Below the pieces are notes generated by a model, which worked only from the letters and a program-made list of their open reading frames with translations, ran no database searches and had not been told where the DNA came from. The position numbers and the translations under genes are program-made. This document shows positions 1,825 through 19,413 of a stretch of DNA of 57,942 nt, one piece after another. Every line of letters begins with the position of its first letter. The first letter of the stretch is position 1. Source of the DNA: Geothrix limicola (GTDB lineage: Bacteria > Acidobacteriota > Holophagae > Holophagales > Holophagaceae); the NCBI RefSeq assembly GCF_030268085.1, contig NZ_BSDE01000003.1, positions 687,610 to 745,551 on the forward strand, read 5' to 3'.

Positions 1825-2424
1825 TTAGGCTCCCACCGTTTCCTGGATGAGGCCGCGCCCGGCCTGGAAGGCTTCGAGGTTCTTCTCGGTGACGCGGGCA
1901 CCCTTGGCTTCGAAGCGCTGGGTGATCACGTCCTGCCACACCTCGGGAGAGACCGGCAGGAACCTGGACGCCATGCCCAGCAGGGCCATGCCGCCGGCCT
2001 GCTTGTGGCTCAGGCGGCGGGCGAGATCCTCGGTGTCGAGGAGGTGGGCCCCGCGCACGGCCTTGAGGGCCGCGTAGACGTCATCGATGGGCGGATAGCC
2101 TTCCATGTTGATCTGGGGTTCCTCGGAGACGACGAGGTGGCCGTTCATGCGCAGCATGGACACGTAGCGCAGGGCTTCGAGCGGTTCGAGGGCGATGAGC
2201 AGGTCCGCGGAACCCTCGTCGATGATCGGCGAGGTCAGCGGGCCTTCGGAGAAGCAGACCTGGGCATGGACGCTGCCGCCCCGCTGGCTCATGCCGTGGA
2301 TCTCGGACTGCAGCGCGTGCAGGCCGCTGCGGCGCAGGGCTTCGAGGACGATCTGAGCGAGGGAGAGGACCCCCTGGCCTCCCACGCCGGAGAGGACGAT
2401 GCCGTGGATGCGGGGAGCGCTCAT
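1825..2424 (-). CDS. iorB: Indolepyruvate ferredoxin oxidoreductase, beta subunit
   Basis: Gamma-type subunit of the 2-oxoacid:ferredoxin oxidoreductase superfamily, 199 residues, the usual size for IorB. The N-terminal GVGGQGVLSLAQI and the HGMSQRGGSVHAQV segments are hallmarks of the family. With IorA it oxidatively decarboxylates aryl-pyruvates made by transamination of aromatic amino acids, giving aryl-acetyl-CoA and reduced ferredoxin. The start codon overlaps the iorA stop by four bases, and the acyl-CoA synthetase follows after one base, so the three are translationally coupled. Soluble, cytoplasmic. Confidence 0.92.
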   Translation of the reverse strand: MSAPRIHGIVLSGVGGQGVLSLAQIVLEALRRSGLHALQSEIHGMSQRGGSVHAQVCFSEGPLTSPIIDEGSADLLIALEPLEALRYVSMLRMNGHLVVSEEPQINMEGYPPIDDVYAALKAVRGAHLLDTEDLARRLSHKQAGGMALLGMASRFLPVSPEVWQDVITQRFEAKGARVTEKNLEAFQAGRGLIQETVGA

Positions 2425-4082
2425 GGGCGGGCCTCCGTGCTGGCGCAGACCTGCTCCGCGCAGGCCTTGAGTTCACGATCGTGGTCCTTCAGCACACCCC
2501 GGCGCATGGACTGGATGCACTCGCGCCGGAAGATGACGACGGAGGGGCCGGGGTGCTGGAGGGCGGATTCCATGGCCTTCACGTTGGCGTCGTGCAGCCT
2601 GGGCAGGGGGGTGAGGACCTGGAGCTGGGCTTCGGGAATGCCCATGCCGAGGGCCATGCGCTCCACCTGGTCGAGGGCCTGGCTGGGCTGCTGGCCTGTC
2701 ATGCCCACCACGCGGTTGTCGAGGATGATGATGGTGACGTTCACATCCGAGTCGGCGGCCGTCAGCAGGGCCGGCAGGCCGCTGTGGCCGAAGGTGGAAT
2801 CGCCGATGACGGCGACGGAGGGCGTCTGGCCCGCCAGGGCCGCGCCCACGGCCATGCTGATGCTGGCGCCCATTTCGACGACGGCATGGATGGCGCCCAT
2901 GGGTTCCTGGGCGGCGAGGGTGTAGCAGCCGATGTCACCGAAGACGCGGGTCTCGGGCACGCCCAGGTTGGCGAGGGCTTCCTGCATGGCTTCGTAGGCG
3001 TCCACGTGGCCGCAGCCGTCACAGAAGCGCGGGGCTCGGGGGGGCAGATCCAGGGTGATGGATTCCTTGGCCTCGGCTACGAGCAGGGCCAGGGCATTCT
3101 TGAGTTGGCGGGGCGTGAGCTCGCCCGTGCGGGGCACGGTGCCGTCCAATCGTCCGCGCACCTTGGCTGAACCGCGCAGGCCCAGGCGCTCCTCCAACAC
3201 CGGATAGTCCTCTTCGAAGACGAAGACCTCGTCCACCTGGGCGAGGAAGGCCGCCTCAAGCTGAGGGTCCACCGGGTAGGCGGCCACTTCAAGGCGGGGC
3301 AAGGCCGCCAGGGCCGGGTATTCCAGGAGCAGCTGATCAAAGTAGGCGCGGCCCATGCCCGAGACGGCCACGCCCTGGCGGCTGCCGCCCGCCACCAGAC
3401 GGTTCATGGGGGCGAGCCGCTCGATGAGGCGGGGCTGCTTGGCCAGCAGATCCACATAGCGCCGCCGGGCATTGGATGGGATCAGCACCCAGTCCTGGAT
3501 GGTGTCCTTCGGAGCCAGACCCAAGCCCGTCGGAGGCAGGATCGCACGGCGCCGGAGGGCAGCCCGGCAATGGGCCAGGCGGGTGACGAGGCGCACCATC
3601 ACGGGGATCTGCAGGGCTTCGGACAGTTCGAAGGCCTGCCAGGTGAAGTCGTAGCACTCCTGCACGGTGCTGGGTTCGAGGCAGGGCAGCCAGGCGAATT
3701 CAGCCAGACGGCGGCTGTCCTGCTCGTTCTGGCTGCTGTGCATGCCCGGATCGTCAGCCACCAGCAGCACCAGGCCACCGCGCACGCCCGTGAGGGCGGA
3801 GTTGGCGTAGGCATCCATGGCCACGTTCAGGCCCACATGCTTCATGGTCACGAGGGTGCGATGCCCGGCGTAGCTCACGCCCAGGGCCAGGTCGTAGGCC
3901 ACCTTCTCATTGGCGGCCCAGCGGGCCACGCGGCCTTCGGGCGCCTCTTGGATCATGGCTTCGACGAACTCGAACCCTTCCGTGGAGGGGGTGCCGGGAT
4001 AGCCGAAAGCGCCCTTGATGCCGGCATCGAAGGCCGCACACCCCACCGCTTCCACCCCCAGGGCCAGGGTGTTCTGAGTCAT
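2421..4082 (-). CDS. iorA: Indolepyruvate ferredoxin oxidoreductase, alpha subunit (no ferredoxin domain)
   Basis: Catalytic thiamine-diphosphate subunit of the indolepyruvate oxidoreductase, 553 residues. The N-terminal pyrimidine-binding domain (YPGTPSTEGFEF; MKHVGLNVAMDAY) and the C-terminal TPP domain (CDGCGHVDAYEAM; GDSTFGHSG...LDNRVVGMTG) are intact. The protein stops soon after FRRECIQSMRRG; the C-terminal module with two 4Fe-4S clusters found in most archaeal and many bacterial IorA proteins is absent, so electrons must leave by another route or through fewer clusters. I chose the ATG at 4082 because GGAGG lies six bases upstream; a TTG twelve bases earlier has no ribosome binding site. 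First gene of the iorA-iorB-synthetase operon, divergent from the cytochrome cluster. Confidence 0.9.
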   Translation of the reverse strand: MTQNTLALGVEAVGCAAFDAGIKGAFGYPGTPSTEGFEFVEAMIQEAPEGRVARWAANEKVAYDLALGVSYAGHRTLVTMKHVGLNVAMDAYANSALTGVRGGLVLLVADDPGMHSSQNEQDSRRLAEFAWLPCLEPSTVQECYDFTWQAFELSEALQIPVMVRLVTRLAHCRAALRRRAILPPTGLGLAPKDTIQDWVLIPSNARRRYVDLLAKQPRLIERLAPMNRLVAGGSRQGVAVSGMGRAYFDQLLLEYPALAALPRLEVAAYPVDPQLEAAFLAQVDEVFVFEEDYPVLEERLGLRGSAKVRGRLDGTVPRTGELTPRQLKNALALLVAEAKESITLDLPPRAPRFCDGCGHVDAYEAMQEALANLGVPETRVFGDIGCYTLAAQEPMGAIHAVVEMGASISMAVGAALAGQTPSVAVIGDSTFGHSGLPALLTAADSDVNVTIIILDNRVVGMTGQQPSQALDQVERMALGMGIPEAQLQVLTPLPRLHDANVKAMESALQHPGPSVVIFRRECIQSMRRGVLKDHDRELKACAEQVCASTEARP

Positions 4083-4579
4083 GTCAACCTCCAATCATAT
4101 TGCAATTGCCAAGCCGGAAGTATGGTGGTCCCGCCCCGTGTCTGGGATCACACGGAAGCCCTGTGGCAGTGGGTGTGCGCGACGTCACAGGCCTTCCGAG
4201 GATTCGGAAAAACCCCGCGGTGCCTTCGGGCAATAGGGCCAGTGCCCCAAGTCACAACTTTGTCGCGAGGCAAGGTTCACCGGGGGAGTGAATTCCGGGT
4301 TCGAGTCTTATCTGGGGCCCCAATGTGTTGTGTAAATATATATTTTAATTGTAGTTAAAAAAATTACTCAATTGTCACAACGGCTTCCTTGGATCCCGTT
4401 TTCTCCCCACAGGGCCCTGTGACAATTTGCATTCACTCTCTTGAGGTCAATTAATTTCGGCACTAGTGTTCTTCCTGACCTGTGCATCAGCTACCAGCTC
4501 AAGTCTTCTCTCCCGTTCCCCGCACCACTCGTCTTCTTGAACGGCCACACGAACAGCGAATTGCAAGATGAGGCGAACC
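4083..4579. promoter_or_regulatory. Divergent control region between iorA and the cytochrome cluster
   Basis: About 500 bases without a convincing gene separate the iorA start from the beta-barrel gene. The segment 4332-4375 is almost entirely A+T in an otherwise GC-rich window. Immediately after it come two copies of a palindromic word in inverted orientation (see 4370-4427). The rest, 4095-4330, is ordinary GC-rich sequence in which I see no motif. It probably holds the promoters of both transcription units, but no individual -35/-10 pair can be assigned with confidence. Confidence 0.5.
4370..4427. repeat. Inverted repeat AATTGTCACA...TGTGACAATT
   Basis: Two exact ten-base arms, AATTGTCACA at 4370-4379 and its reverse complement TGTGACAATT at 4418-4427, are separated by 38 bases. 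The left arm is itself inside TTGTCACAA, a palindrome around a central C; the right one reads CTGTGACAA. This is what paired operator half-sites for a dimeric regulator look like, with CRP/FNR-type proteins as the obvious candidates because of the TGTGA word. A hairpin is also possible but the loop is long. Confidence 0.5.
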
Positions 4580-5932
4580 ATGAAACGACACACCTATGTG
4601 GCCCTGCTAGCCACCCTGATGTCAGCCAGCGCCTGGGGCCAGGAGGTCAGCCTGTATGGGACGACCATGGCCCAGATGTGGAAGCAGGATGCGGCGGGGA
4701 CGGAGAAGGCGACCTACACTCCGGCGACGCAGTACTTGGGCATCGACGCGACGAAGCTGGGTTCGGACAACCTGTCGCTGCACCTGTTCGGGTGGGGCCG
4801 GACGGATCTGAGCGATCAGAGCAACTTCGACGGAAAGACGGCCGGGTACCTGAACTACGGGTACCTGCAGTACCGTTTCGACCAGGCGAATGCCGAGATC
4901 AAGGCCGGTCGGTTCACGGCGAACCAGAGCACGGGCTTCGAACAGATCGATGGCGTGAGCGCGCGGACGGACCTGGTGAACGGGTTCACGGTGTCGGCCT
5001 TCGGTGGCAAGCCCGTCCTCTATAAGGTGGTGGATCCCCGGAACCAGCACGACTACGACTTCCAGCACGACTTCATCTTCGGAGCGCGGCTGGGTTGGCG
5101 GATGGCGCAGGTGGGCGAGATCGGCCTGTCCTACCTGCAGGATGGAACGAAGGCGGCGCAGGATCTGACGTTCCCCTCGTCGACGGACTACACGCGCAAG
5201 CGGCTGGGCCTGGACCTGGTGGTGACGCCGGCGAAGGCGTTCAGCCTGCAGGGGCGGAGCGTCTACGACGTGAGCAACCAGCGGACGAACGCGGCCGAGC
5301 AGGATTACACGGCGACGGTGAAGCTGGGCGACCAGGTGACGATGTCGGGGAACTACGCGGAGCGGAACTTCCGCTTCTACTTCGCGGGGACGAACCTGCC
5401 CTCGTTGTTCCGGCAGGATGACGGCGACCTGTTCAAGGGCTTTGGCGGCAACCTGACGTGGAACACGACGGCCTCGTTCCAGGTGGTGGCGGACTACCGG
5501 CACACGCACCGCGAGACGTTCGGCGACGTGAACCGGGCGGGCGGCGAGATGCGCTGGAACTTCAACGAGCGTGCCGTGCTGCTGGGTGTGAGCGGGCACT
5601 GGGCGAACGCGGTGGACACGAAGTTCGTGGATCCCGCTGCGCCGTCGAGGAGCCTGAGCCACAAGGAGGCGCGGGCTTGGGTGATGCTGAACAAGGGCAA
5701 GTTCACGGCGAGCCTGGATGGGATCCTGCAGCGTTACGAGAGCGGGAATCCTTATCTGGCGGGGCTGCGGAACGTGTTCGAGACGGTGGCGTCGGTGGGT
5801 TACCAGGCGACGACGAACGTGAAGGTGTCCGGCGACGTGAGCTTCGGCAGCACGCCCGTGGCCAAGCATGAAACGCGGGCATTGCTGCGGGCCGAGTATC
5901 GCTTTGGCTTCGCTAAGAAGGGGGGCAAGTAA
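4580..5932 (+). CDS. Outer-membrane beta-barrel of a putative porin-cytochrome conduit
   Basis: Exported protein of 450 residues with a Sec signal peptide (MKRHTYVALLATLMSASAWG) followed by alternating polar/hydrophobic strands rich in aromatic residues throughout (VSLYGTTMAQMW, YLNYGYLQYRF, GEIGLSYLQDG) and a final YRFGFAKKGGK, typical of outer-membrane barrels. Its stop codon overlaps the start of a pentaheme cytochrome, and two further multiheme lipoproteins follow, the layout of Geobacter Ext-type and other porin-cytochrome conduits. It is much shorter than MtrB (about 700 residues), so it is not a simple MtrB homologue. The ATG at 4580 has GAGG seven bases upstream; an in-frame ATG at 4568 lacks one. 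The conduit role is inferred from context. Confidence 0.8.
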   Translation: MKRHTYVALLATLMSASAWGQEVSLYGTTMAQMWKQDAAGTEKATYTPATQYLGIDATKLGSDNLSLHLFGWGRTDLSDQSNFDGKTAGYLNYGYLQYRFDQANAEIKAGRFTANQSTGFEQIDGVSARTDLVNGFTVSAFGGKPVLYKVVDPRNQHDYDFQHDFIFGARLGWRMAQVGEIGLSYLQDGTKAAQDLTFPSSTDYTRKRLGLDLVVTPAKAFSLQGRSVYDVSNQRTNAAEQDYTATVKLGDQVTMSGNYAERNFRFYFAGTNLPSLFRQDDGDLFKGFGGNLTWNTTASFQVVADYRHTHRETFGDVNRAGGEMRWNFNERAVLLGVSGHWANAVDTKFVDPAAPSRSLSHKEARAWVMLNKGKFTASLDGILQRYESGNPYLAGLRNVFETVASVGYQATTNVKVSGDVSFGSTPVAKHETRALLRAEYRFGFAKKGGK

Positions 5933-6405
5933 TGGTCCGGAAGTCCGTTCTGCAGATTCTAGGAGTGGTGCTGGGCCTTGGGATGCTGATGGCCTGCGGT
6001 CTGGTATCGCCCGAGGCGAGCTTCGCGGCGACGCACCCTGAGGGGCTCGGCGCAGGGAAGCCCGTGTGCTCGGAATGCCACAGCACGGACGTGGCGAAGG
6101 GTGCGCTGAAGCCCTACGCGACGTTCGATCACACGCCGACCTTCGTGAAGGACCACAAATTCCAGGCGAACCAGGACCGGAACACGTGTGCGGCGTGCCA
6201 CGCGCCGTCGTTCTGCGTGGACTGCCACGGCGGGAAGGTTCCGATGAAGCCGGCGACGCGGCTGAGCGACAGCCCGGACCGCATGGCGCCGCACCGGGGA
6301 GACTTCCTGACGCTGCACAAGATCGAAGGGAAGCTGGATCCGTCGAGCTGCTACAGCTGCCATGGCCGGGCGAACAACGACAAGTGCCGGGCTTGTCACC
6401 GGTAG
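5932..6405 (+). CDS. Exported pentaheme c-type cytochrome
   Basis: 157-residue secreted cytochrome with five CXXCH heme-binding motifs: CSECH (around residue 46), CAACH, CVDCH, CYSCH and CRACH close to the C-terminus. The leader is hydrophobic; cleavage could be after ASFA, or the Cys in LMAC could be lipidated, although Met at -2 is not a good lipobox. The ATG overlaps the TAA of the barrel gene (TAATG), so the two are translationally coupled. In Geobacter-type conduits a small multiheme cytochrome on the periplasmic side passes electrons into the barrel; that role is the likely one here but is inferred. Extra His residues between motifs could serve as distal ligands. Confidence 0.87.
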   Translation: MVRKSVLQILGVVLGLGMLMACGLVSPEASFAATHPEGLGAGKPVCSECHSTDVAKGALKPYATFDHTPTFVKDHKFQANQDRNTCAACHAPSFCVDCHGGKVPMKPATRLSDSPDRMAPHRGDFLTLHKIEGKLDPSSCYSCHGRANNDKCRACHR

Positions 6406-6434
6406 TCATCCGCTGAATGTCGAAGGGGAACACC

Positions 6435-7082
6435 ATGAGCAAAGTCAAATGGATGGCGGGTAGCTGCTTGGCGATGGCCCTGGCGGTCCTGGCGCTGGGC
6501 TGTTCGGGAAGCGCGGCCGGGAAGGCCACTCCGTTCAGCGAGGCGACGGGGCATCATCCGTCGAACTGGATCCAGGTGCACTACGCGGGTTATGCGGCGA
6601 CGCCGGACCAGTGCCGGAGCTGCCATGGATCGACGTCGGATCCGGCGCAGGCGGGCGGCATCGCGAAGGTGAGCTGCTTCTCGTGCCACCCGAAGGGCGT
6701 GGACCATCCGTCGAACTGGGCGGACCCGCTGCAGCACGGCCGGATGGGGGCGCAGTTGGCGCCGAACCCGACGGATGCGTTCGCGATGGCGGGATTCGCG
6801 CGGTGCGCGAAGTGCCACGGATCGACCTTCGACAATGGCCCGGCGATTTCGTGCAAGAGCTGCCACACGAAGGCACCGCACCCGGACAAGCCCTGGCTGA
6901 GCACGACGCTGCTGAAATCGAACCACGTGGAAACGGACAGCGCGAACGCACCCGAGTGCGCGAAATGTCACAACGCCGGAGCGAACTCGAGCATGAAGCC
7001 GCTCGCAACTCCCCCGGCTGGAACAGCTCCGGGCTGCTTCAACAACACCCTCTGTCACGGGACGAGCATTCCGAAGCCCTGA
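6435..7082 (+). CDS. Multiheme cytochrome lipoprotein, five CXXCH plus one CX5CH
   Basis: 215-residue lipoprotein with signal sequence ending in the lipobox LALGC. Five canonical heme sites are visible: CRSCH, CFSCH, CAKCH, CKSCH, CAKCH. A sixth candidate, CFNNTLCH close to the C-terminus, has five residues between the cysteines. Two PSN W-containing repeats (HHPSNWIQV, DHPSNWADP) suggest an internal duplication. I take the ATG at 6435 because AAGGGGA sits seven bases upstream; the frame is open from 6417. Third gene of the conduit cluster, probably anchored in the outer membrane and contacting the barrel. Lipid anchoring and surface exposure are inferred. Confidence 0.86.
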   Translation: MSKVKWMAGSCLAMALAVLALGCSGSAAGKATPFSEATGHHPSNWIQVHYAGYAATPDQCRSCHGSTSDPAQAGGIAKVSCFSCHPKGVDHPSNWADPLQHGRMGAQLAPNPTDAFAMAGFARCAKCHGSTFDNGPAISCKSCHTKAPHPDKPWLSTTLLKSNHVETDSANAPECAKCHNAGANSSMKPLATPPAGTAPGCFNNTLCHGTSIPKP

Positions 7083-7198
7083 GACAGACGCATTCCAGGC
7101 ACCGAGTTCAAAGGAGGTGCGACATCCGGTTCAACGCAACACGCAGTTTCTTTCACCCCGCCCATCAACGCTTCACCACCTAATAGGGAGAATGGAAT

Positions 7199-10024
7199 AT
7201 GAAGCACCGTCCTTTGAAACAGCTCTGCGGGCTTCTAGCCACCGCAGCGATCGCGCTCGTGCTGATCGGGTGTAACGGGAAGGCCGGTCAGAACGGCACG
7301 AACGGCACGAACGGCACCAACGGCACGAACGGAACGAACGGCACCAACGGTGTCGACGGCAAGAGCCCGGTGGTCACCATCAACGCCGCGGCGCTGAGCC
7401 CCGACGAGTGGAGCAACACGACGTTCAAGGGTTCGATCCAGAGCGTGGCTGTCTCCGCCACGTCCGGTCAGCCGGTCGTGAAGTTCACGGTCACCGATGC
7501 CTACGGCACGCCTGTCTCGGGCTTCGGCGCGATGACCAGCAAGGCCTCCACGGCCCTGGCCGCCAGCTACCCCAACTTCGGCTTCACGATCGCCAAGCTG
7601 GTGCCTGGCACCAACGGCAGCCCCGCCTACTGGGTGAACTACGTCGTCACGACGATGCCGAACACCACGACGGCAGCGGCCCCTGGCAAGCCCACCACCG
7701 ACAACACGGGCACCCTGGTCGACAACCTCGACGGCACGTACACCTACACGTTCTACCGGGACATCACGAAGGCCCAGGCCTTCCTCGATGGCTACACGTA
7801 CGATGCGACGAAGAACCAGGTCCGCACCGACCTCGGCGACGTGACCTTCGACGGTACGCTGACGCACCGCCTGTCCATCCAGATCTACGGCAACGCCCGC
7901 GGCACCAGCACCAACACCCCCGATGGCTCCAACCTCGGTGTGCCCGCGGCGCCTGTTAAGACGCCCGCGAACCTCTATTACGACTTCATCCCTGCCACGG
8001 GCAAGGCCGTGGCCTCCACGGACCTGCAGCGCAACATCGTCGACATGGACGCCTGCAACCGCTGCCACACCAAGTTCACGACCTTCCACGGCGGCAGCCG
8101 CATCGACACCCAGCTCTGCACGATCTGCCACACGGATCAGCGCAAGTATGGCAATGCCGAATCGGTCGTGACCGCGACGACGGTGGCGCCTCCCGCGTCT
8201 CCCGTCGGCACCACCGCCACCTACAAGATCAACGGCCTGGCCACCGGCAACTTCGTCGCGTTCATCCACCGGATGCACATGGGTGAAGGGCTGACCAAGA
8301 CCGGCTACAACTACGCCAACATTCTGTTCAACGAAGTCACCTATCCCCAGGATCAGCGCAACTGCGTCATGTGCCACGACGGCACGGCCACCTCTCCCTA
8401 TGTCACCACCCAGGGCGACAACTGGAAGAACGTGCCGAGCCGGCTGGCCTGCGGCGCCTGCCATGACCAGGTGAACTTCGCCGATGGCACCAACCACGGC
8501 ACCCTCGCCAACGGTGGCCCCCAGCTCGACGACAAGCACTGCGTCGACTGCCACACTCCCGCCAACATCGACACCGTCCACACTCCGGCCGTCGGCCCCG
8601 ACGTGGCTGGCTACGTCCCCAACAGCCACACCAACGGTTCCACCGTTGCGGCCTACAGCAGCAGCATCCCCGCCGGCGCGCACCGCGTGACCTGGGATCT
8701 CAAGAGCTTCGCGCTCGACACCACGGGCCATCCCGTGTTCAAGTTCCGCTTCCTGGAAGACGGCGTCGCCAAGGACTTCCTGACGCCCGCCAGCACCACG
8801 GACAACGTGTTCTGGACCGGCTACATCGGCGGCCCCAGCTTCTACGTCGCCATGGGCACGACCCAGGACGGCATCAGCACGCCTGCGGATTGGAACACCA
8901 CCGCCAGCGTGACCTTCGTCAGTGTCTGGAACGGCTCCGGTAGCGCCAAGGCCACCCTGTCCGCCAAGGGCACCGATGGCTACTACACCCTGACGATGGT
9001 TGGCACGGTCATCCCGACCAGCGCCACCATGGTGACGGGCGGCATCGGCTACTCCTATGGGTACGGCGCTTCCCAGCCCCTGACCCAGACCGCGGTCCCC
9101 GGGTACCCCTACAACACCACCACGACCATCGGTGGCGTGAGCGTTCCGGCGCCCAACGTGTCCAAGATTATGAGCAATGCCACGCCGATCCCCACCGGCT
9201 TCCCCGGCACGGTTTCGGCCGACGGCAAGACCTGGACCGGCCCGGCCAACACCACTCGCCGCGCCATCGTCAGCAATGCCAAGTGCAATGACTGCCACGC
9301 GGTGCTCGGTGTCTTTACCGACAAGGTCTACCATGCCGGCGAACGCAACGATGCCCCGACCTGCACCTTCTGCCACAACGTCAACAAGATCAACAGTGGC
9401 TGGGGTGTGAACATCAAGGATGCCGTCCACGCCATCCACGGCGCCGACAAGCGGACCCAGAAGTACTCCTGGGAAGCCACCGCGGGCGACAAGTACTGGA
9501 ACGTGACCTACCCCGCGATGCTGAACAACTGCGAGGCCTGCCACGTCCCCGGTTCCTATGACTTCAGCAACAGCACCAACGCTGCGGCCATCCCGAACCT
9601 GCTCTGGACCGGCGTTGCCGCGGGCAACATGACCACGGCCACGGCCTACTCCATCGTCACCGGCAATGAAGTGGTTGCTTCGACGGACAAGGTCATCTCG
9701 CCCTGGATCAACCCCGCGCTCACGACCAACCCCGCCGTGCTGCCCCTGGGCACCGCCTACGGCGCGAACTACTCCTACAGCCTGGCCACGGCCACGGCCA
9801 CCCAGGCCGCCGCTGGCACCCTCGTGACTTCCCCGATCACGAGCGCCTGCTCGGCTTGCCATGACACGCCTGCTGCCATCGCGCACTTCCGTGGCAACGG
9901 CGGTTCGTTCTACGCTGCCCGCACGGCCGCCGGCGTTCTGCCTGCGAACGTCGAACAGTGCATGATCTGCCACGGCAACGGCAAGACGGCCGACATTCGC
10001 GCCGTCCACATGAGCTGGAAGTAA
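7199..10024 (+). CDS. Decaheme OmcA/MtrC-family outer-membrane cytochrome
   Basis: 941-residue lipoprotein (lipobox LVLIGC) with exactly ten CXXCH motifs between about residues 286 and 921: CNRCH, CTICH, CVMCH, CGACH, CVDCH, CNDCH, CTFCH, CEACH, CSACH, CMICH. The first pair is spaced by FTTFHGGSR, the signature of the OmcA/MtrC decaheme family, whose members sit on the cell surface and reduce metal oxides, shuttles or electrodes. The lipid anchor is followed by a Gly-X-Y tract of repeated N-G-T units, collagen-like, perhaps a flexible stalk. Residues ~55-280 and ~480-660 lack hemes and resemble the beta-barrel domains of the family. Preceded by a 116-base gap with a GGGAG ribosome site, and followed by a strong terminator. 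Confidence 0.94.
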   Translation: MKHRPLKQLCGLLATAAIALVLIGCNGKAGQNGTNGTNGTNGTNGTNGTNGVDGKSPVVTINAAALSPDEWSNTTFKGSIQSVAVSATSGQPVVKFTVTDAYGTPVSGFGAMTSKASTALAASYPNFGFTIAKLVPGTNGSPAYWVNYVVTTMPNTTTAAAPGKPTTDNTGTLVDNLDGTYTYTFYRDITKAQAFLDGYTYDATKNQVRTDLGDVTFDGTLTHRLSIQIYGNARGTSTNTPDGSNLGVPAAPVKTPANLYYDFIPATGKAVASTDLQRNIVDMDACNRCHTKFTTFHGGSRIDTQLCTICHTDQRKYGNAESVVTATTVAPPASPVGTTATYKINGLATGNFVAFIHRMHMGEGLTKTGYNYANILFNEVTYPQDQRNCVMCHDGTATSPYVTTQGDNWKNVPSRLACGACHDQVNFADGTNHGTLANGGPQLDDKHCVDCHTPANIDTVHTPAVGPDVAGYVPNSHTNGSTVAAYSSSIPAGAHRVTWDLKSFALDTTGHPVFKFRFLEDGVAKDFLTPASTTDNVFWTGYIGGPSFYVAMGTTQDGISTPADWNTTASVTFVSVWNGSGSAKATLSAKGTDGYYTLTMVGTVIPTSATMVTGGIGYSYGYGASQPLTQTAVPGYPYNTTTTIGGVSVPAPNVSKIMSNATPIPTGFPGTVSADGKTWTGPANTTRRAIVSNAKCNDCHAVLGVFTDKVYHAGERNDAPTCTFCHNVNKINSGWGVNIKDAVHAIHGADKRTQKYSWEATAGDKYWNVTYPAMLNNCEACHVPGSYDFSNSTNAAAIPNLLWTGVAAGNMTTATAYSIVTGNEVVASTDKVISPWINPALTTNPAVLPLGTAYGANYSYSLATATATQAAAGTLVTSPITSACSACHDTPAAIAHFRGNGGSFYAARTAAGVLPANVEQCMICHGNGKTADIRAVHMSWK

Positions 10025-10162: not shown

Positions 10163-10537
10163 GTGAATAAAAAAATAGTTAGATTGATTTCAACACTTGC
10201 GATTGTGTTCGGATGCACGGCCTGGGGCCTGGCCCAGGAAGATGAGACACCGAAGCCGAAAAAGGCCCCTACCACTGCCGAGCAGGCGGCCCGGGCCAAA
10301 GCCCGTGAGAAGCTGCGGCAGGCGAAGGCGAAGGCTGATGCCGAAGCCAAGGCCAAGGCGGTGGATATCAACCACGCCACCAAGGCCGAGCTGGTGAAGG
10401 TCCCGGGCATCACGGAAACCTACGCCGACGCGATCATCGCCAAGCGCCCCTACAGGTCGAAGGCGGACCTCGTGACCAAGAACGCGATTCCCAAGGGCCT
10501 CTATCAAAGCGTTCGCAAACTGGTCGCCGCGAAATAG
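10163..10537 (+). CDS. Exported helix-hairpin-helix (ComEA-like) protein
   Basis: 124 residues starting at a GTG with TAGGGG six bases upstream. A signal peptide (MNKKIVRLISTLAIVFGCTAWGLAQ) is followed by a charged Ala/Lys/Glu-rich linker (residues ~30-65) and a helix-hairpin-helix domain, DINHATKAELVKVPGI...AIIAKRPYRSKADLV. ComEA-type proteins with this fold bind DNA in the periplasm during uptake; small solo versions are common and their job is often unknown. No competence genes are adjacent. It has its own promoter space after the cluster terminator and is followed by another terminator, so it is probably monocistronic. Confidence 0.8.
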   Translation: MNKKIVRLISTLAIVFGCTAWGLAQEDETPKPKKAPTTAEQAARAKAREKLRQAKAKADAEAKAKAVDINHATKAELVKVPGITETYADAIIAKRPYRSKADLVTKNAIPKGLYQSVRKLVAAK

Positions 10538-10562
10538 GCTTTTCATCCCTCCCGGTTGGCCC

Positions 10563-10591
10563 AAAGCCCCCATGCCGGGGGCTTTGTTTTT
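10563..10591 (+). terminator. Rho-independent terminator
   Basis: Nine-base stem AAAGCCCCC / GGGGGCTTT, five-base loop, then GTTTTT. It lies 25 bases past the stop of the helix-hairpin-helix gene. Confidence 0.9.
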
Positions 10592-10626: not shown

Positions 10627-10706
10627 AAGGATGGTTGACCAAATAGAATACCGGAGCATCTTCATTGATAAGCCTTGTTTTGGCTTGATCTTTCATGGAG
10701 GTTTGG

Positions 10707-11210
10707 ATGCTCCCCCTGTCCCAGACTACGGGTTACGCGGTGCGGGCATTGCGCTGCCTCCAGGAACCAGGGGGGCATCCGGTCCTGGTCGAGGAGGTGG
10801 CGGAGTACACCGGCATTCCTCGCTCGTACCTATCGAAGTTGATCCACAAGCTGGCCAAGAAAGGCCTGGTGGTCGCCCGACGCGGTCACCACGGCGGCGT
10901 GGTGCTGGCCAGGCCTTCTTCGGAGATCACCCTGGAGGATCTGTCTGAGGCCATTGATGGCGTGGCCTGGCGGAAGCGTTGCCTCATGGGGCTGCTCGGT
11001 TGTTCGGGGGAGACGCCCTGTGTTCTCCACGAGTTCTGGCACCAGACCTTGGAGCAGATCCTGGCGCGGCTACGTTCGGTGACCCTGGCGGACCTGGCCC
11101 AGAATCCCGACCCGGGTGTGGAGCGTTTCCGGGCGAACCACGGCCTCCTGAACCAACGGATACAAAGTGCGGTGTCTGCGCCGGAATACACTGCCGCCGG
11201 GGGCCATTAG
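10707..11210 (+). CDS. Rrf2-family Fe-S transcriptional regulator (copy 1)
   Basis: 167-residue winged-helix regulator of the Rrf2 family (IscR, NsrR, RirA relatives). The N-terminal MLPLSQTTGYAVRALRCL and GIPRSYLSKLIHKLAKKGLV helix-turn-helix segment are diagnostic. Three cysteines follow in the order C-x6-C-x5-C (CLMGLLGCSGETPC), the cluster-ligating loop, so it probably senses iron-sulfur status, oxygen or nitric oxide. The start is placed at 10707 because GGAGG lies seven bases upstream and the paralogue begins with the same MLPLSQ; an in-frame ATG at 10695 overlaps that ribosome site. It faces a paralogue at 11281-11814. Targets are unknown; the cytochrome and PFOR/Nfn genes on either side are candidates. 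Confidence 0.88.
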   Translation: MLPLSQTTGYAVRALRCLQEPGGHPVLVEEVAEYTGIPRSYLSKLIHKLAKKGLVVARRGHHGGVVLARPSSEITLEDLSEAIDGVAWRKRCLMGLLGCSGETPCVLHEFWHQTLEQILARLRSVTLADLAQNPDPGVERFRANHGLLNQRIQSAVSAPEYTAAGGH

Positions 11211-11280: not shown

Positions 11281-11814
11281 TCAGGCCTTCTTGGCGGGGG
11301 TGCGTTTGGGGGCCGCGGGTTTCTTCGCGGCGGGTTTAGCGGCCTTCTTGACGCGGGGCTTGGCCTTCTTCTCGGGGAGAGCGTCGGCCAGGCGCCAGGT
11401 GCGGCTGTTCTGCTCGAAGGTGCGGATCTCCTCCAGGGAGATGTCCTTCAGGCAGCGGTAGATGTGATCGCGCTCGGCCTTCCAGAAGGTGTGCGAGGGG
11501 CAGGCGCGCTCGTCGGAGCAGTCCTTGAAGCCGAGGAGGCACTGGTTTCGCCACTCGGAGCCGTCCACGGCTTCGGCGATGAGGTCGAGCGTGATCTCCT
11601 TGGCCGCCAGGGCCAGCACCACGCCGCCCTTGTTGCCGCGCTTCGCCATGACCAGGCCCACCTTGGCAAGCTTGTGGATCATCTTGGACAGGTAGGGGCG
11701 GGGGAAGCCCGTGCGGGCCGCCACATCCACCACCAGCGTAGGCTTGCCGCCTGGGTCTTCGAGGCAGCTCATGGCAAGGACCGCATAACCGGAGGACTGG
11801 GACAGAGGAAGCAT
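11281..11814 (-). CDS. Rrf2-family Fe-S transcriptional regulator (copy 2, basic tail)
   Basis: 177 residues, clearly paralogous to the gene at 10707 (MLPLSQSSGYAVLAMSCL; GFPRPYLSKMIHKLAKVGLV) and with the same cysteine spacing C-x6-C-x5-C in CLLGFKDCSDERAC. Unlike copy 1 it ends in a roughly 30-residue Lys/Ala/Pro-rich tail (KKAKPRVKKAAKPAAKK...), resembling histone-H1-like tails, which could add nonspecific DNA affinity. Start at the ATG with AGGTGACC upstream; the frame is open to a TTG twelve bases earlier. An inverted repeat lies 60-85 bases upstream. Probably an Fe-S redox or NO sensor; regulon not known. Confidence 0.87.
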   Translation of the reverse strand: MLPLSQSSGYAVLAMSCLEDPGGKPTLVVDVAARTGFPRPYLSKMIHKLAKVGLVMAKRGNKGGVVLALAAKEITLDLIAEAVDGSEWRNQCLLGFKDCSDERACPSHTFWKAERDHIYRCLKDISLEEIRTFEQNSRTWRLADALPEKKAKPRVKKAAKPAAKKPAAPKRTPAKKA

Positions 11815-11876
11815 GGTCACCTGCAAGGGAAGGATGGTTGAGATGATTGCTATGAATAATAGACGATCTTCAGGTC

Positions 11877-16638: not shown

Positions 16639-19413
16639 TCAGACCACCGCCGGATCCCCTTGGAGCCGCTGGTGGATCGCCGCCGCGGCGCGGCGGCCCT
16701 GACCCATGGCCAGGATGACGGTGGCGCCGCCGGTGATGACGTCGCCGCCGGCGAAGACGCCGGGCAGGGAGGTCTCACCGGTTTCGTTGTCGACGACGAC
16801 GACACCGCCCTTCAGGGTCTTCAGGCCCTTGTCGGTCATGGCGATGAGGGGATTCACGTCGAAGCCCAGCGCCACCACGAGGGTTTCACAGGGGATCATG
16901 ATCCGCTCGTCCGTCATCTTGGGGCTGCGGCGGCCATCGGGTCCGGGCTCGCCCAGCTCCATGACGGCGCATTCGGCGTGAGTCATCCAGCCCTTGTCGT
17001 TGCCGTGCAGCTGCACGGGCGTCGTGAGGAATTTGAATTCCACGCCCTCTTCCATGGCGTGCTCCAGCTCCTCCTTGCGGGCTGTGGATTCCTTGATGGT
17101 GCGGCGGTAGACCACCGTGACCTTCTCGGCGCCCATGCGGCGGGCCGCGCGGGAGGCGTCCATGGCCGTGTTGCCCGCGCCGACGATGATGACGTTCTTG
17201 CCGACCGTCACGGGTGTCGTGTGGGTGGGGAAGAGGTCGGCACGCATGAGGTTGATGCGGGTGAGGAATTCATTGGCCGTGTAGACGCCCTTGTACTCCT
17301 CGCCGGGGATGCCCATCATCTTGGGCAGGCCCGCGCCGGTGCCCATGAAGATGGCGTCGTTCTCCTTCCGGAGATCCTCCAGCGTCATGCTGCGGCCCAC
17401 CAGGGTGTTCATGACGAACTTCACGCCCAGGCGGCGCAGGGTGTCCACTTCCTGATCGACGATCTTGTTGGGCAGGCGGAATTCGGGGATGCCGTAGAGC
17501 ATCACGCCGCCCGGCTTGTGGAAGGCGTCGTAGACCGTGACCTGATGACCCTTCTTGATGAGTTCGCCGGCCACCGTGAGCCCCGCGGGGCCCGCGCCGA
17601 CGACGGCCACCTTCTTGCCGGTGGGCGCTTCGACCGGGGGCAGCTCCTGGGAGCCCAGCATGGAGTCGCTGGCGTAGCGCTCCAGGCGGCCGATGGAGAC
17701 GGGCTCACCCTTGATGCCCACCACGCACTTGATCTCGCACTGCTTTTCCTGCGGGCAGACGCGGCCGCAGACCGAGCCCAGGCTGGAGCTTTCCTTGATG
17801 ACGCGCGCGGCGGCCTGGGGATCATCGTTGACGATCTGCTGGAGGAAGGCCGGGATGTTGATGCTCACCGGGCAGCCTTCGATGCAGGCGGGGTGCTTGC
17901 ACATGATGCAGCGGGCCGCCTCGAGCTTGGCCTGCTCGGGCGACAGGCCCAGGCTCACCTCGTCGAAGTTGCACACGCGCAGTTCGGGCGGCTGACAGGC
18001 CATGTCCTGGCGGGGGATCTTCATCTTCTGGCTGGGCTTGATGGCGCCCAGGTCGAGGTTCTTCCAGTCCAGCTCGGTGACGGCCTCGTTGAGGTACTTC
18101 GAGTAGTCCACCGGGCCCGTGGCGGCCACGCGGCCGATCTTGCACTGGTCGGGCTCGCAGATGTCCTTCTCCTCCTGCTTGTACCAGTCGGACCGCATGC
18201 GGAGCATGTTGAAGTCCACCTGGTGGCCGTCGAAGTCGGGGCCGTCGAAGCAGGCGAACTTGGTCTGCCCGCCCACGCTGACGCGGCAGCCGCCGCACAT
18301 GCCGGTGCCGTCCACCATGAGCGCGTTGAGGCTCACGAGCGTGAAGATTCCGTGGGGCTTCGTCAGATCGGAGACGGCCCGCATCATGGGCAGCGGACCC
18401 ACGGCCACCACTTGGGCGATGGGCTCGCGGGCGATGATGTCCTTGAGCGCATCGGTCACGAGGCCCTTGCGGCCCAGGGTGCCGTCGTCGGTGGTGACGA
18501 TGAGCTCGGCCGAGGCCGCGCCCAGTTCGTCCGCCAGCAGCACGCGCTCCTTGGAGCGGCCGCCGAGGATGGTGATGACGCGGCGCCCTTCGGCGTGGAG
18601 GGCTTCGGCCGCGGGCAGGATCGCGGCGCTGCCGTAGCCGCCGGCCATCAGCACGATGGTGCCTTCCTCCACCAGCTCGGTCGGCGTGCCCATGGGCCCG
18701 GCCACGGCGTAGAGGCGGTCACCCGCGCTGAGCTTGCCCATGGCCTGGGTGGTGGCGCCGACCTCCTGCATGATGAAGTGGATGTAGCCCTTCTTGGCAT
18801 CGCCTCCCGCCAGCGTGAGGGGGATGCGCTCGCTCTCGGGGAAGGGCGCCACCATGAAGAACTGGCCGGGCTTGCGGCCCCGCGCCACCTGGGGCGCCTG
18901 CACGATGAAGGACCAGGTCTCGGGGGCGATGAGCTTCTTCTCGAGGATGAGGTAGCCCTCCTGGGTCTCGTCCTCGGACCAGTAGAGCGACTTGCCCTTG
19001 AGCAGGGGCAGCATGAGCTTTTCCTCAGCCTCGATGTGATCGCGGATGAGATCCACCAAGCGCTGGCCCAGCAGGGTGAGCGAACGCGGGGCGCGCACCT
19101 GGCCTTCGCTGATCTCGGAAAGCAGCTGGAGGGTGAGCTCCCACATCTGCCGGTGGTCGTCGTAGAGGCGCTGGTGCAGGGATTCGGCGCCGATCTCCTC
19201 CAGCAGGGGGAAGAGCTCCCGCTCCTCGGCCTCGTTGTGGGCGCGCAGCACCTCGTAGATCCACTTGGCCCCGCCGTCGACCTCAGCCCAGTTCCCGGCG
19301 CCCAGGGCCTCGGCCATGCGGGTCAGGCGGGCCTGGGCTTCCTCGTGGGTGGCGTGCCAGTTGGGAGCGGGCAGGTTGCCGGAGCTGATCAGCTGAGTGG
19401 CCGAATCGGACAT
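16639..19413 (-). CDS. Hemerythrin-NfnS-NfnL fusion: putative bifurcating transhydrogenase
   Basis: A 924-residue single polypeptide with three parts. Residues ~18-145 form a hemerythrin (HHE) domain with WHATHEE, HNEAEERELFP, DDHRQMW and DHIEAEEKLMLP, the His/Glu pattern that binds a di-iron site. Residues ~150-420 match the small Nfn subunit: an FNR-like FAD/NAD domain (IPLTLAG; AGGYGSAAILP) ending in the 2Fe-2S loop GTGMCGGCRVSV...FACFDGPDFD. Residues ~440-924 match the large Nfn subunit/glutamate-synthase-beta family: CIMCKHPACIEGCPV, CGRVCPQEKQCEIKC, and two dinucleotide folds (VAVVGAGPAGLT; VIIVGAGNTAMDASRA). NfnSL couples NADH and reduced ferredoxin to two NADP+. It is next to PFOR, which supplies ferredoxin. 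The hemerythrin part could sense or scavenge oxygen or NO; its function is inferred. Confidence 0.9.
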   Translation of the reverse strand: MSDSATQLISSGNLPAPNWHATHEEAQARLTRMAEALGAGNWAEVDGGAKWIYEVLRAHNEAEERELFPLLEEIGAESLHQRLYDDHRQMWELTLQLLSEISEGQVRAPRSLTLLGQRLVDLIRDHIEAEEKLMLPLLKGKSLYWSEDETQEGYLILEKKLIAPETWSFIVQAPQVARGRKPGQFFMVAPFPESERIPLTLAGGDAKKGYIHFIMQEVGATTQAMGKLSAGDRLYAVAGPMGTPTELVEEGTIVLMAGGYGSAAILPAAEALHAEGRRVITILGGRSKERVLLADELGAASAELIVTTDDGTLGRKGLVTDALKDIIAREPIAQVVAVGPLPMMRAVSDLTKPHGIFTLVSLNALMVDGTGMCGGCRVSVGGQTKFACFDGPDFDGHQVDFNMLRMRSDWYKQEEKDICEPDQCKIGRVAATGPVDYSKYLNEAVTELDWKNLDLGAIKPSQKMKIPRQDMACQPPELRVCNFDEVSLGLSPEQAKLEAARCIMCKHPACIEGCPVSINIPAFLQQIVNDDPQAAARVIKESSSLGSVCGRVCPQEKQCEIKCVVGIKGEPVSIGRLERYASDSMLGSQELPPVEAPTGKKVAVVGAGPAGLTVAGELIKKGHQVTVYDAFHKPGGVMLYGIPEFRLPNKIVDQEVDTLRRLGVKFVMNTLVGRSMTLEDLRKENDAIFMGTGAGLPKMMGIPGEEYKGVYTANEFLTRINLMRADLFPTHTTPVTVGKNVIIVGAGNTAMDASRAARRMGAEKVTVVYRRTIKESTARKEELEHAMEEGVEFKFLTTPVQLHGNDKGWMTHAECAVMELGEPGPDGRRSPKMTDERIMIPCETLVVALGFDVNPLIAMTDKGLKTLKGGVVVVDNETGETSLPGVFAGGDVITGGATVILAMGQGRRAAAAIHQRLQGDPAVV

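Follow-up and report, generated by a model that had tools for sequence, protein, structure and literature searches.

The closest described counterparts of the locus reported here are the Ext conduits of Geobacter, namely ExtEFG of Geobacter sulfurreducens (GSU2726-GSU2724) and ExtABCD, and the MtrCAB system of Shewanella. A porin-cytochrome complex comprises an outer-membrane barrel, a redox lipoprotein and a periplasmic multiheme element (PMC6148476). Loss of extEFG alone left growth on Fe(III) citrate at 62.5% of wild type, and its loss together with omcBC left Fe(III) oxide reduction at <25% (PMC6148476). Among Acidobacteria, a cluster with an ExtB/E-family porin in a Holophaga genome (S7) was called the first likely porin-cytochrome complex (PMC7399161), and in cable-bacteria sediment a Holophaga metagenome-assembled genome (MAG) expressed extEFG and mtrF homologues and a Geothrix MAG expressed mtrF (PMC11748539). 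Here we analyze a 57,942-nucleotide stretch of Geothrix limicola (contig NZ_BSDE01000003.1, 687,610 to 745,551, forward strand), hereafter the window, in which four consecutive plus-strand genes, together spanning 4568-10024, encode an outer-membrane barrel and three multiheme cytochromes. In our reading the cluster is an Ext-type (ExtBC/ExtEF) conduit that would carry electrons across the outer membrane and end, on the outside, in a surface decaheme of the OmcA/MtrC type; we put the probability of this reading at roughly 0.8.

The four genes and their heme proteins

The genes stand in the order barrel, pentaheme, hexaheme, decaheme:

4568-5932, plus strand: outer-membrane beta-barrel, ExtE-type, 454 residues; open reading frame (ORF) with an alternative start at 4580
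5932-6405, plus strand: pentaheme lipoprotein, ExtF-type, 157 residues, 5 CXXCH; one-base overlap with the barrel gene
6417-7082, plus strand: hexaheme lipoprotein, 221 residues, 5 CXXCH and 1 CX5CH; one-module relative of ExtG
7199-10024, plus strand: OmcA/MtrC-family decaheme surface lipoprotein, 941 residues, 10 CXXCH; TIGR03507, PF22113

An earlier note, made from the letters of this stretch, had described four genes in a row with the first two overlapping, and the ORFs bear this out: the intergenic distances are -1, 11 and 116 bases in gene order, and the barrel stop and pentaheme start share one base (TAATG). The extent it gave, 4580-10024, holds except at the left edge, as the barrel ORF begins at 4568 and 4580 is its second in-frame ATG. 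An AGG-rich stretch lies ahead of 4580, and we regard this codon as at least as likely a start as 4568.

The three cytochromes had been credited with 5, 5 (6) and 10 hemes, and their CXXCH counts of 5, 5 (plus the CX5CH) and 10 lie far above the means of 0.04, 0.05 and 0.01 obtained by shuffling each protein's own residues; all three carry a lipobox-like Cys, as judged by eye. In the pentaheme, the five motif histidines and five others are all invariant in 71/71 distinct sequences, which is what five bis-histidine hemes serving only electron transfer would lead one to expect. Short alignments and duplicates were excluded from all pentaheme counts, and sequences below 35% identity or with X from this one. 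The 71 distinct sequences inspected by eye all have a cysteine at the position of its lipobox Cys22. The mature protein has 136 residues (14.6 kDa plus 3.1 kDa of heme, 17.7 kDa in all), with a heme spacing of 40-9-45-12.

The third protein has a lipobox-type signal sequence (by eye) and, counting the CX5CH, six motif histidines together with exactly six others. Because none of these varies in any of the 29 distinct sequences that share at least 45% identity over 180 residues, six heme sites are supported, and the sixth (CX5CH) is probably real.

The identity of the decaheme as a member of the OmcA/MtrC family, as the earlier note had proposed, is secure on sequence grounds. It scores 457.6 bits against TIGR03507 (cut-off 209.3) and 170.3 bits against PF22113 (MtrC/MtrF domains II/IV), its relatives in the PDB are MtrF and MtrC, and it is the only TIGR03507 match (E <= 0.001) in the genome. 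Its motifs fall into two groups of five (residues 286-448 and 696-921) behind a lipobox-type signal sequence (by eye). Among sequences at least 35% identical over 700 residues, nine non-motif histidines are fully conserved in the 28 or 29 that have letters there, and a tenth (H223) is kept in 27/29. PF22112, the OmcA-like N-terminal family, gave no match, but as the controls were likewise silent this is uninformative. Residues 25-52 (7271-7354) form a GTN-repeat, collagen-like tether behind the lipid anchor, and in L123, a relative from Geobacterales, the stretch GDKGDRGEPGK takes this position.

Comparison with Ext and Mtr systems and distribution

The window proteins are nearest to those of a Geobacterales locus, L159, in which a barrel, a pentaheme and a protein with 13 CXXCH and 4 CXnCH motifs are followed by genes with PF00174 (YedY-like) and PF01257 (HoxE-like) domains. 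Such YedY- and HoxE-like neighbors are the gene context of extEFG (PMC6148476). The assignment of Geobacterales loci as extEFG- or extABCD-type rests on this context rather than on alignment to GSU2726-GSU2724, the set of 141 genomes probably being without the G. sulfurreducens type strain (best PpcA identity 86%). The window barrel is 34% identical to that of L159 over 425 residues (E 3e-73), the pentaheme is 56% identical to its ExtF-type protein over 134 residues, and the hexaheme is 47.5% identical over 221 residues to the N-terminal part of its third protein and so resembles one module of ExtG. In L097, whose pentaheme gene is that of L159, the heme spacing is 39-9-45-12 and so nearly that of the window pentaheme. 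The suggestion in the earlier note that the locus is closer to the Geobacter Ext conduits is thus upheld by homology of the barrel, pentaheme and third cytochrome to L159, an operon identified by its context.

The gene order is that of ExtEFG, with a barrel, a pentaheme lipoprotein and a third multiheme protein. However, the third protein here has six heme sites against 12 for ExtG (PMC6148476), and no YedY or Hox genes lie behind the cluster, where the OmcA/MtrC-type decaheme is found instead. Because it lacks both the dodecaheme third protein and the YedY/Hox context, we have not filed the cluster as ExtEFG, although it very likely works like it. It differs from ExtABCD in that no dodecaheme ExtA precedes the barrel, an oxidoreductase gene pair standing there instead.

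Surroundings of the Geobacterales pentahemes fall into three kinds. L159 represents the first, and in the second (L158, L160, L162, L163 and L164) a protein with 11 CXXCH and 1 CXnCH lies directly upstream of the barrel, as in extABCD. The third comprises pentahemes with shorter heme spacing, and in 3 of the 21 loci examined (L123, L124 and L128) an OmcA/MtrC-like decaheme lies upstream of the barrel. This arrangement agrees with the report that a decaheme lipoprotein is found upstream of extE in some Desulfuromonadales clusters (PMC6148476, Fig. 9 footnote c). Those clusters share with ours the combination of Ext-type barrel, pentaheme and decaheme lipoprotein, but the decaheme is upstream there and downstream here, and the pentahemes of L123, L124 and L128 belong to a branch with 33-9-45-12 spacing that is 39-42% identical to the window pentaheme.

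With MtrCAB the cluster shares the surface decaheme of the OmcA/MtrC family. The genome gave no match to the MtrB/PioB barrel (TIGR03509), which is present in 2 of 60 genomes (G010, within the genus, and G057), and only two weak matches to MtrA/DmsE (TIGR03508), the better at E 2.9e-4 and far below the 192.2-bit cut-off. The window barrel is modeled with 22 strands, unlike the 26 of MtrB (PMC12133095). The earlier note had likewise seen no MtrA-like periplasmic decaheme and had argued for wiring unlike that of MtrCAB, with which these searches accord.

Within the genus the barrel is present in 32/37 genomes, that of G. limicola included (32/60 over all genomes searched), although only a fragment of it is seen in G031 and G034. 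By hand count, a TIGR03507 decaheme follows within 5 kb downstream in 25 of the 32; in five (G024, G031, G032, G034, G035) the contig ends before its position, and in two (G022, G023) it is missing; in G023 a diverged protein with 10 CXXCH lies upstream instead. In two barrel-less genomes of the genus (G001 and G019) the decaheme starts close to the end of its contig (at 277 and 10 bases, respectively), so that a cut assembly may explain the absent barrel. Synteny in Acidobacteriota, to which the earlier note had pointed as a check, extends to other genera: a search with a 14-row profile (E <= 1e-12) found the pentaheme in 24/297 genomes, all Holophagaceae, 19 in the genus and five in five further genera, and all five of the latter have barrel, pentaheme, hexaheme and decaheme in the same order (in one, L150, barrel and decaheme are cut by contig ends). 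In the order of Geomesophilobacter, a pentaheme match reaches E <= 1e-5 in 116/141 genomes and, by our count, E <= 1e-30 in 92; the weaker matches may be other cytochromes.

In a tree of 94 distinct pentahemes, 44 sequences, from Holophagaceae and one near MAG (G061), form one clade (100/100), which stands next to two Geobacterales genomes (G072 and G073) at 91/96, unstarred, and the five pentahemes from ExtABCD contexts group apart in a clade of their own (100/100). The tree rests on few columns, and bootstrap support has not converged. Transfer between phyla, in one direction or the other, is likely. Among the 14 named loci nearest to the pentaheme, 13 are from Holophagaceae, Geothrix or Acidobacteria MAGs. 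ExtE- and ExtB-context barrels are homologous to each other (L159 and L160, 31% over 425 residues, E 1.5e-43), as are the corresponding pentahemes (L159 against L158, L160 and L162, 42% over 159 residues), in contrast to the statement in PMC6148476 that Ext components share no homology.

Several variants of the cluster were seen along the way. Four OmcA/MtrC-family decahemes stand in tandem behind the barrel cluster of G008 (contig 5, 64390-76517), and elsewhere in the genus there are two in G012 and three each in G006 and G015. Two genomes of the genus (G009 and G449) have a second, diverged barrel-pentaheme cluster (L152 and L153), in which the third protein has 25 CXXCH motifs and no decaheme is seen within 16 kb. 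In another family of the class (G038 contig 56, G040 contig 23, G048 contig 279) an OmcA/MtrC decaheme adjoins an MtrA/DmsE-family decaheme of 172-184 bits, just below the cut-off of 192.2, and MtrB was not detected there.

As Ext-type conduits in Holophaga and decahemes beside extE have both been published, a cluster of this kind is already known. The Holophaga MAG clusters (PMC7399161, PMC11748539) are alike in having Ext-type porin or extEFG and mtrF homologues, but the sections examined describe no four-gene order, one-module third protein or family-wide spread. In the open-licence PubMed Central literature, as far as its text was accessible, we found no description of the four-gene cluster or of a pentaheme as a barrel plug, and no text that assigns the outer-membrane route of Geothrix to a defined operon. 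To this the present analysis adds a defined locus of four genes, its distribution across the family, a third protein of one module, and the hypothesis of a pentaheme plug.

The barrel-pentaheme pair and the proposed path of electrons

A barrel homologue ends just before the pentaheme in all 87 distinct pentahemes with at least 700 bases upstream, 17 hits with less having been set aside; for this count and for the tree, sequences with X or without exactly five CXXCH were also excluded. Because many loci had been fetched by the barrel in the first place, the pairing was recounted on those fetched by a pentaheme query only, where a barrel lies directly upstream in 48/49; in the exception, L072, it is present too, joined to the pentaheme across ambiguous bases. 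This joined frame (L020/L072, 628 residues) had been considered as a natural barrel-pentaheme fusion, but an X over the ambiguous bases at the join marks a scaffold gap. Long frames in L116, L125, L147 and L152 were likewise rejected as fusions, as they overlap a separate barrel frame or extend the pentaheme upstream in GC-rich DNA. A third-cytochrome gene is found in 43 of the same 49 loci; of the other six, L067 stops at the edge of its contig and L110 and L146 escaped the overlap rule (compare L131 and L007), which leaves three. The third protein has 2 to 25 CXXCH motifs depending on the cluster. The length of the pentaheme is near-constant, as is its spacing except for the first interval (32-41 residues), and for this reason we place the pentaheme rather than the third protein at the core. 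On this comparison, barrel and pentaheme together may be what stays constant in Ext conduits, with the remaining cytochromes as interchangeable parts.

The barrel matches no NCBIfam model and nothing in Pfam better than E 0.39. Its model (14 sequences in the alignment) has 22 strands, with a predicted local distance difference test score (pLDDT) of 66.7 and a predicted template modeling score (pTM) of 0.60, and supports the outer-membrane barrel of the earlier note. In a second structural comparison, most of the best matches are barrels of TonB-dependent transporters, headed by PirA (Z 19.1, root-mean-square deviation (RMSD) 4.3, 347 residues aligned) and followed by Fiu (18.6, 4.8, 353), Cir (18.2, 4.7, 374), BtuB (18.1, 4.8, 359) and FhuA (16.3, 5.0, 361). 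At 10-12% identity the likeness is one of fold only. The aligned ranges begin past what we take to be the plug domain of the transporter chains, and the window barrel, unlike the transporters, has no plug that we could find, with no plug family in Pfam or NCBIfam at E <= 1. MtrB-type barrels are absent from the 50 structural matches listed, which is not evidence against kinship.

Strand alternation is barrel-like, with a hydrophobicity contrast of 1.93 against a mean of 1.19 and a maximum of 1.87 in 1,000 shuffles. When lumen- and lipid-facing positions are assigned from this alternation, lumen-facing positions are the more conserved in 89 sequences (1.48 bits, against 1.90 for lipid-facing positions and 2.21 for loops; p 1.4e-4 for lumen against lipid), and several inward-pointing glycines are invariant or nearly so. 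From barrel geometry, 22 strands correspond to a radius of 19.3-20.0 Å and 26 strands to one of 22.8-23.5 Å. The 136 residues of the mature pentaheme are about the size of a TonB-transporter plug. With 22 strands, no plug and TonB-transporter barrels as its nearest neighbors, the modeled barrel makes the hosting of a cytochrome possible and plausible, a property on which the conduit of the earlier note had been made to depend.

We propose that electrons from the quinol pool would reach the barrel-bound pentaheme by way of periplasmic cytochromes; the pentaheme would occupy the lumen as both plug and wire and carry them across the outer membrane to the hexaheme and decaheme outside. The hexaheme may form a junction and the decaheme the terminal reductase, with flow directed outward and Fe(III) or Mn(IV) minerals, humics, an electrode or a partner cell as possible final acceptors. 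Candidate donors in the genome are two NapC/NirT-type and seven cytochrome-c7-type matches, none of them linked to the cluster. The cluster is real and conserved, and probably a functional electron conduit. A more general proposal is that all Ext conduits of the family share a 22-strand, TonB-transporter-sized barrel plugged by a separate pentaheme lipoprotein of about 136 residues, a wire shorter than the decaheme MtrA, and that the Holophagaceae cluster would be a pared-down form of it, with one hexaheme module left and an OmcA/MtrC terminal substituted; this we hold tentatively, at somewhat short of even odds. As a single four-gene cluster, conserved in Holophagaceae and found in a genome without MtrAB, the locus would make a mineral-respiration route testable by one deletion and offers a compact genetic target for how the Geothrix group respires minerals.

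A number of observations weigh against the conduit as drawn. Its function is predicted from genes and models, against the background of Geothrix as a mineral-respiring genus of soil and sediment, outside the Proteobacteria and known for extracellular electron transfer. The barrel and redox-lipoprotein elements of a porin-cytochrome complex are present. All three cytochromes have a lipobox-like Cys, on whichever face of the outer membrane each may lie, so that the cluster encodes no soluble periplasmic partner. Loss of extEFG alone left Fe(III) oxide reduction at 87.5 +/- 14.9%, Mn(IV) oxide reduction at 99.6% and electrode growth at 104.8% (PMC6148476), and therefore even the role of the nearest relative is partial. 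Confidence in the barrel model is moderate. The Foldseek order by E-value is headed by MOMP and AlgE, although by query-length TM-score these reach 0.35-0.40 against 0.53 for the first BtuB match; ushers and OprD-type porins also score Z 16-17, so that the count of 22 strands is that of the model and not a proof. The AlphaFold2 model of the pentaheme failed (pLDDT 43.4, pTM 0.19) and was not used, and its fit in the barrel is therefore an argument from size only. Covariation between barrel and pentaheme is weak: a first run on 82 pairs showed lumen-facing columns 1.6-1.8 times over-represented among coupled pairs, and in a second run on 68 triples 39/59 coupled barrel columns face the lumen (entropy-matched null 32.1 +/- 3.6), against 33/59 for a control protein. 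At the level of pairs, the pentaheme count of 120/152 (null 86.5 +/- 6.0) is accompanied by a raised control (110/152, null 85.5 +/- 6.0), and we have set covariation aside as a proof of contact.

The same conduit could be wired differently, with the hexaheme spanning the barrel and the pentaheme as a small outer or inner cap. The prediction of ExtF as an outer lipoprotein and ExtG as a periplasmic cytochrome (PMC6148476) would put the wire in the third protein rather than in the pentaheme, and a third-cytochrome gene, too, accompanies most pentaheme-fetched loci. We nevertheless consider this wiring unlikely, if the most serious of the alternatives, as it would give the spanning role to the protein that varies from 2 to 25 motifs across clusters rather than to the one of constant length and spacing (bar the first interval), whose gene also lies immediately next to the barrel gene or overlaps it.

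Direction is a separate matter. Heme wires are reversible in principle, and an inward or two-way conduit might take up electrons from Fe(II), a cathode or a partner cell. Holophaga and Geothrix may draw electrons from ferrous iron and hand them to cable bacteria (PMC11748539), but the nearest genetics, that of extEFG, concerns metal reduction (PMC6148476), and an inward or two-way role seems to us improbable. Slightly less probable still is that the genes form no conduit and represent an ordinary porin beside unrelated lipoprotein cytochromes, or an apparatus for cytochrome secretion. The barrel belongs to no curated family and the complex is a predicted one, which leaves some room for such a view, and a part for porin-cytochrome complexes in cytochrome secretion has been raised in terms called speculative (PMC12307469). 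Against it stands the pairing of barrel and pentaheme in 87/87 distinct cases, over two phyla and three cluster types.

Flanking sequence and other genes in the window

The host genome (G000) comprises 4.23 Mb in 20 contigs, and a search of plasmid records gave no match. On the 5' side the cluster is flanked by a divergent 2-oxoacid:ferredoxin oxidoreductase pair (1825-4094, minus strand; POR/TPP domains), and no sigma-70-like site was found ahead of the barrel on the plus strand examined. On the 3' side the decaheme gene is followed by that of a small, exported-looking helix-hairpin-helix (HHH; ComEA-like) protein (10163-10537) and then by two Rrf2-family regulators near the cluster (10695-11210, plus strand; 11281-11826, minus strand). 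The strongest terminator-like site downstream, at 10562-10586, lies past the HHH gene, which thus stands between it and the decaheme; weaker sites inside and behind genes are about as numerous as expected from shuffling.

Upstream of the barrel, the 8-mer TTGTCACA at 4372-4379 recurs as its reverse complement at 4418-4425, 46 bases apart, and these are its sole two copies within the window. The pair was considered as a conserved operator and rejected, as it occurs in 0/30 other distinct upstream regions printed; a single TTGTCAC occurs in five of the 30, one of them only 25 bases long. Farther downstream, 16639-19413 (minus strand) encodes a 924-residue protein that combines a hemerythrin domain at its N-terminus with a dihydroorotate-dehydrogenase-B Fe-S domain and a Fer4_20/Pyr_redox_2 part.

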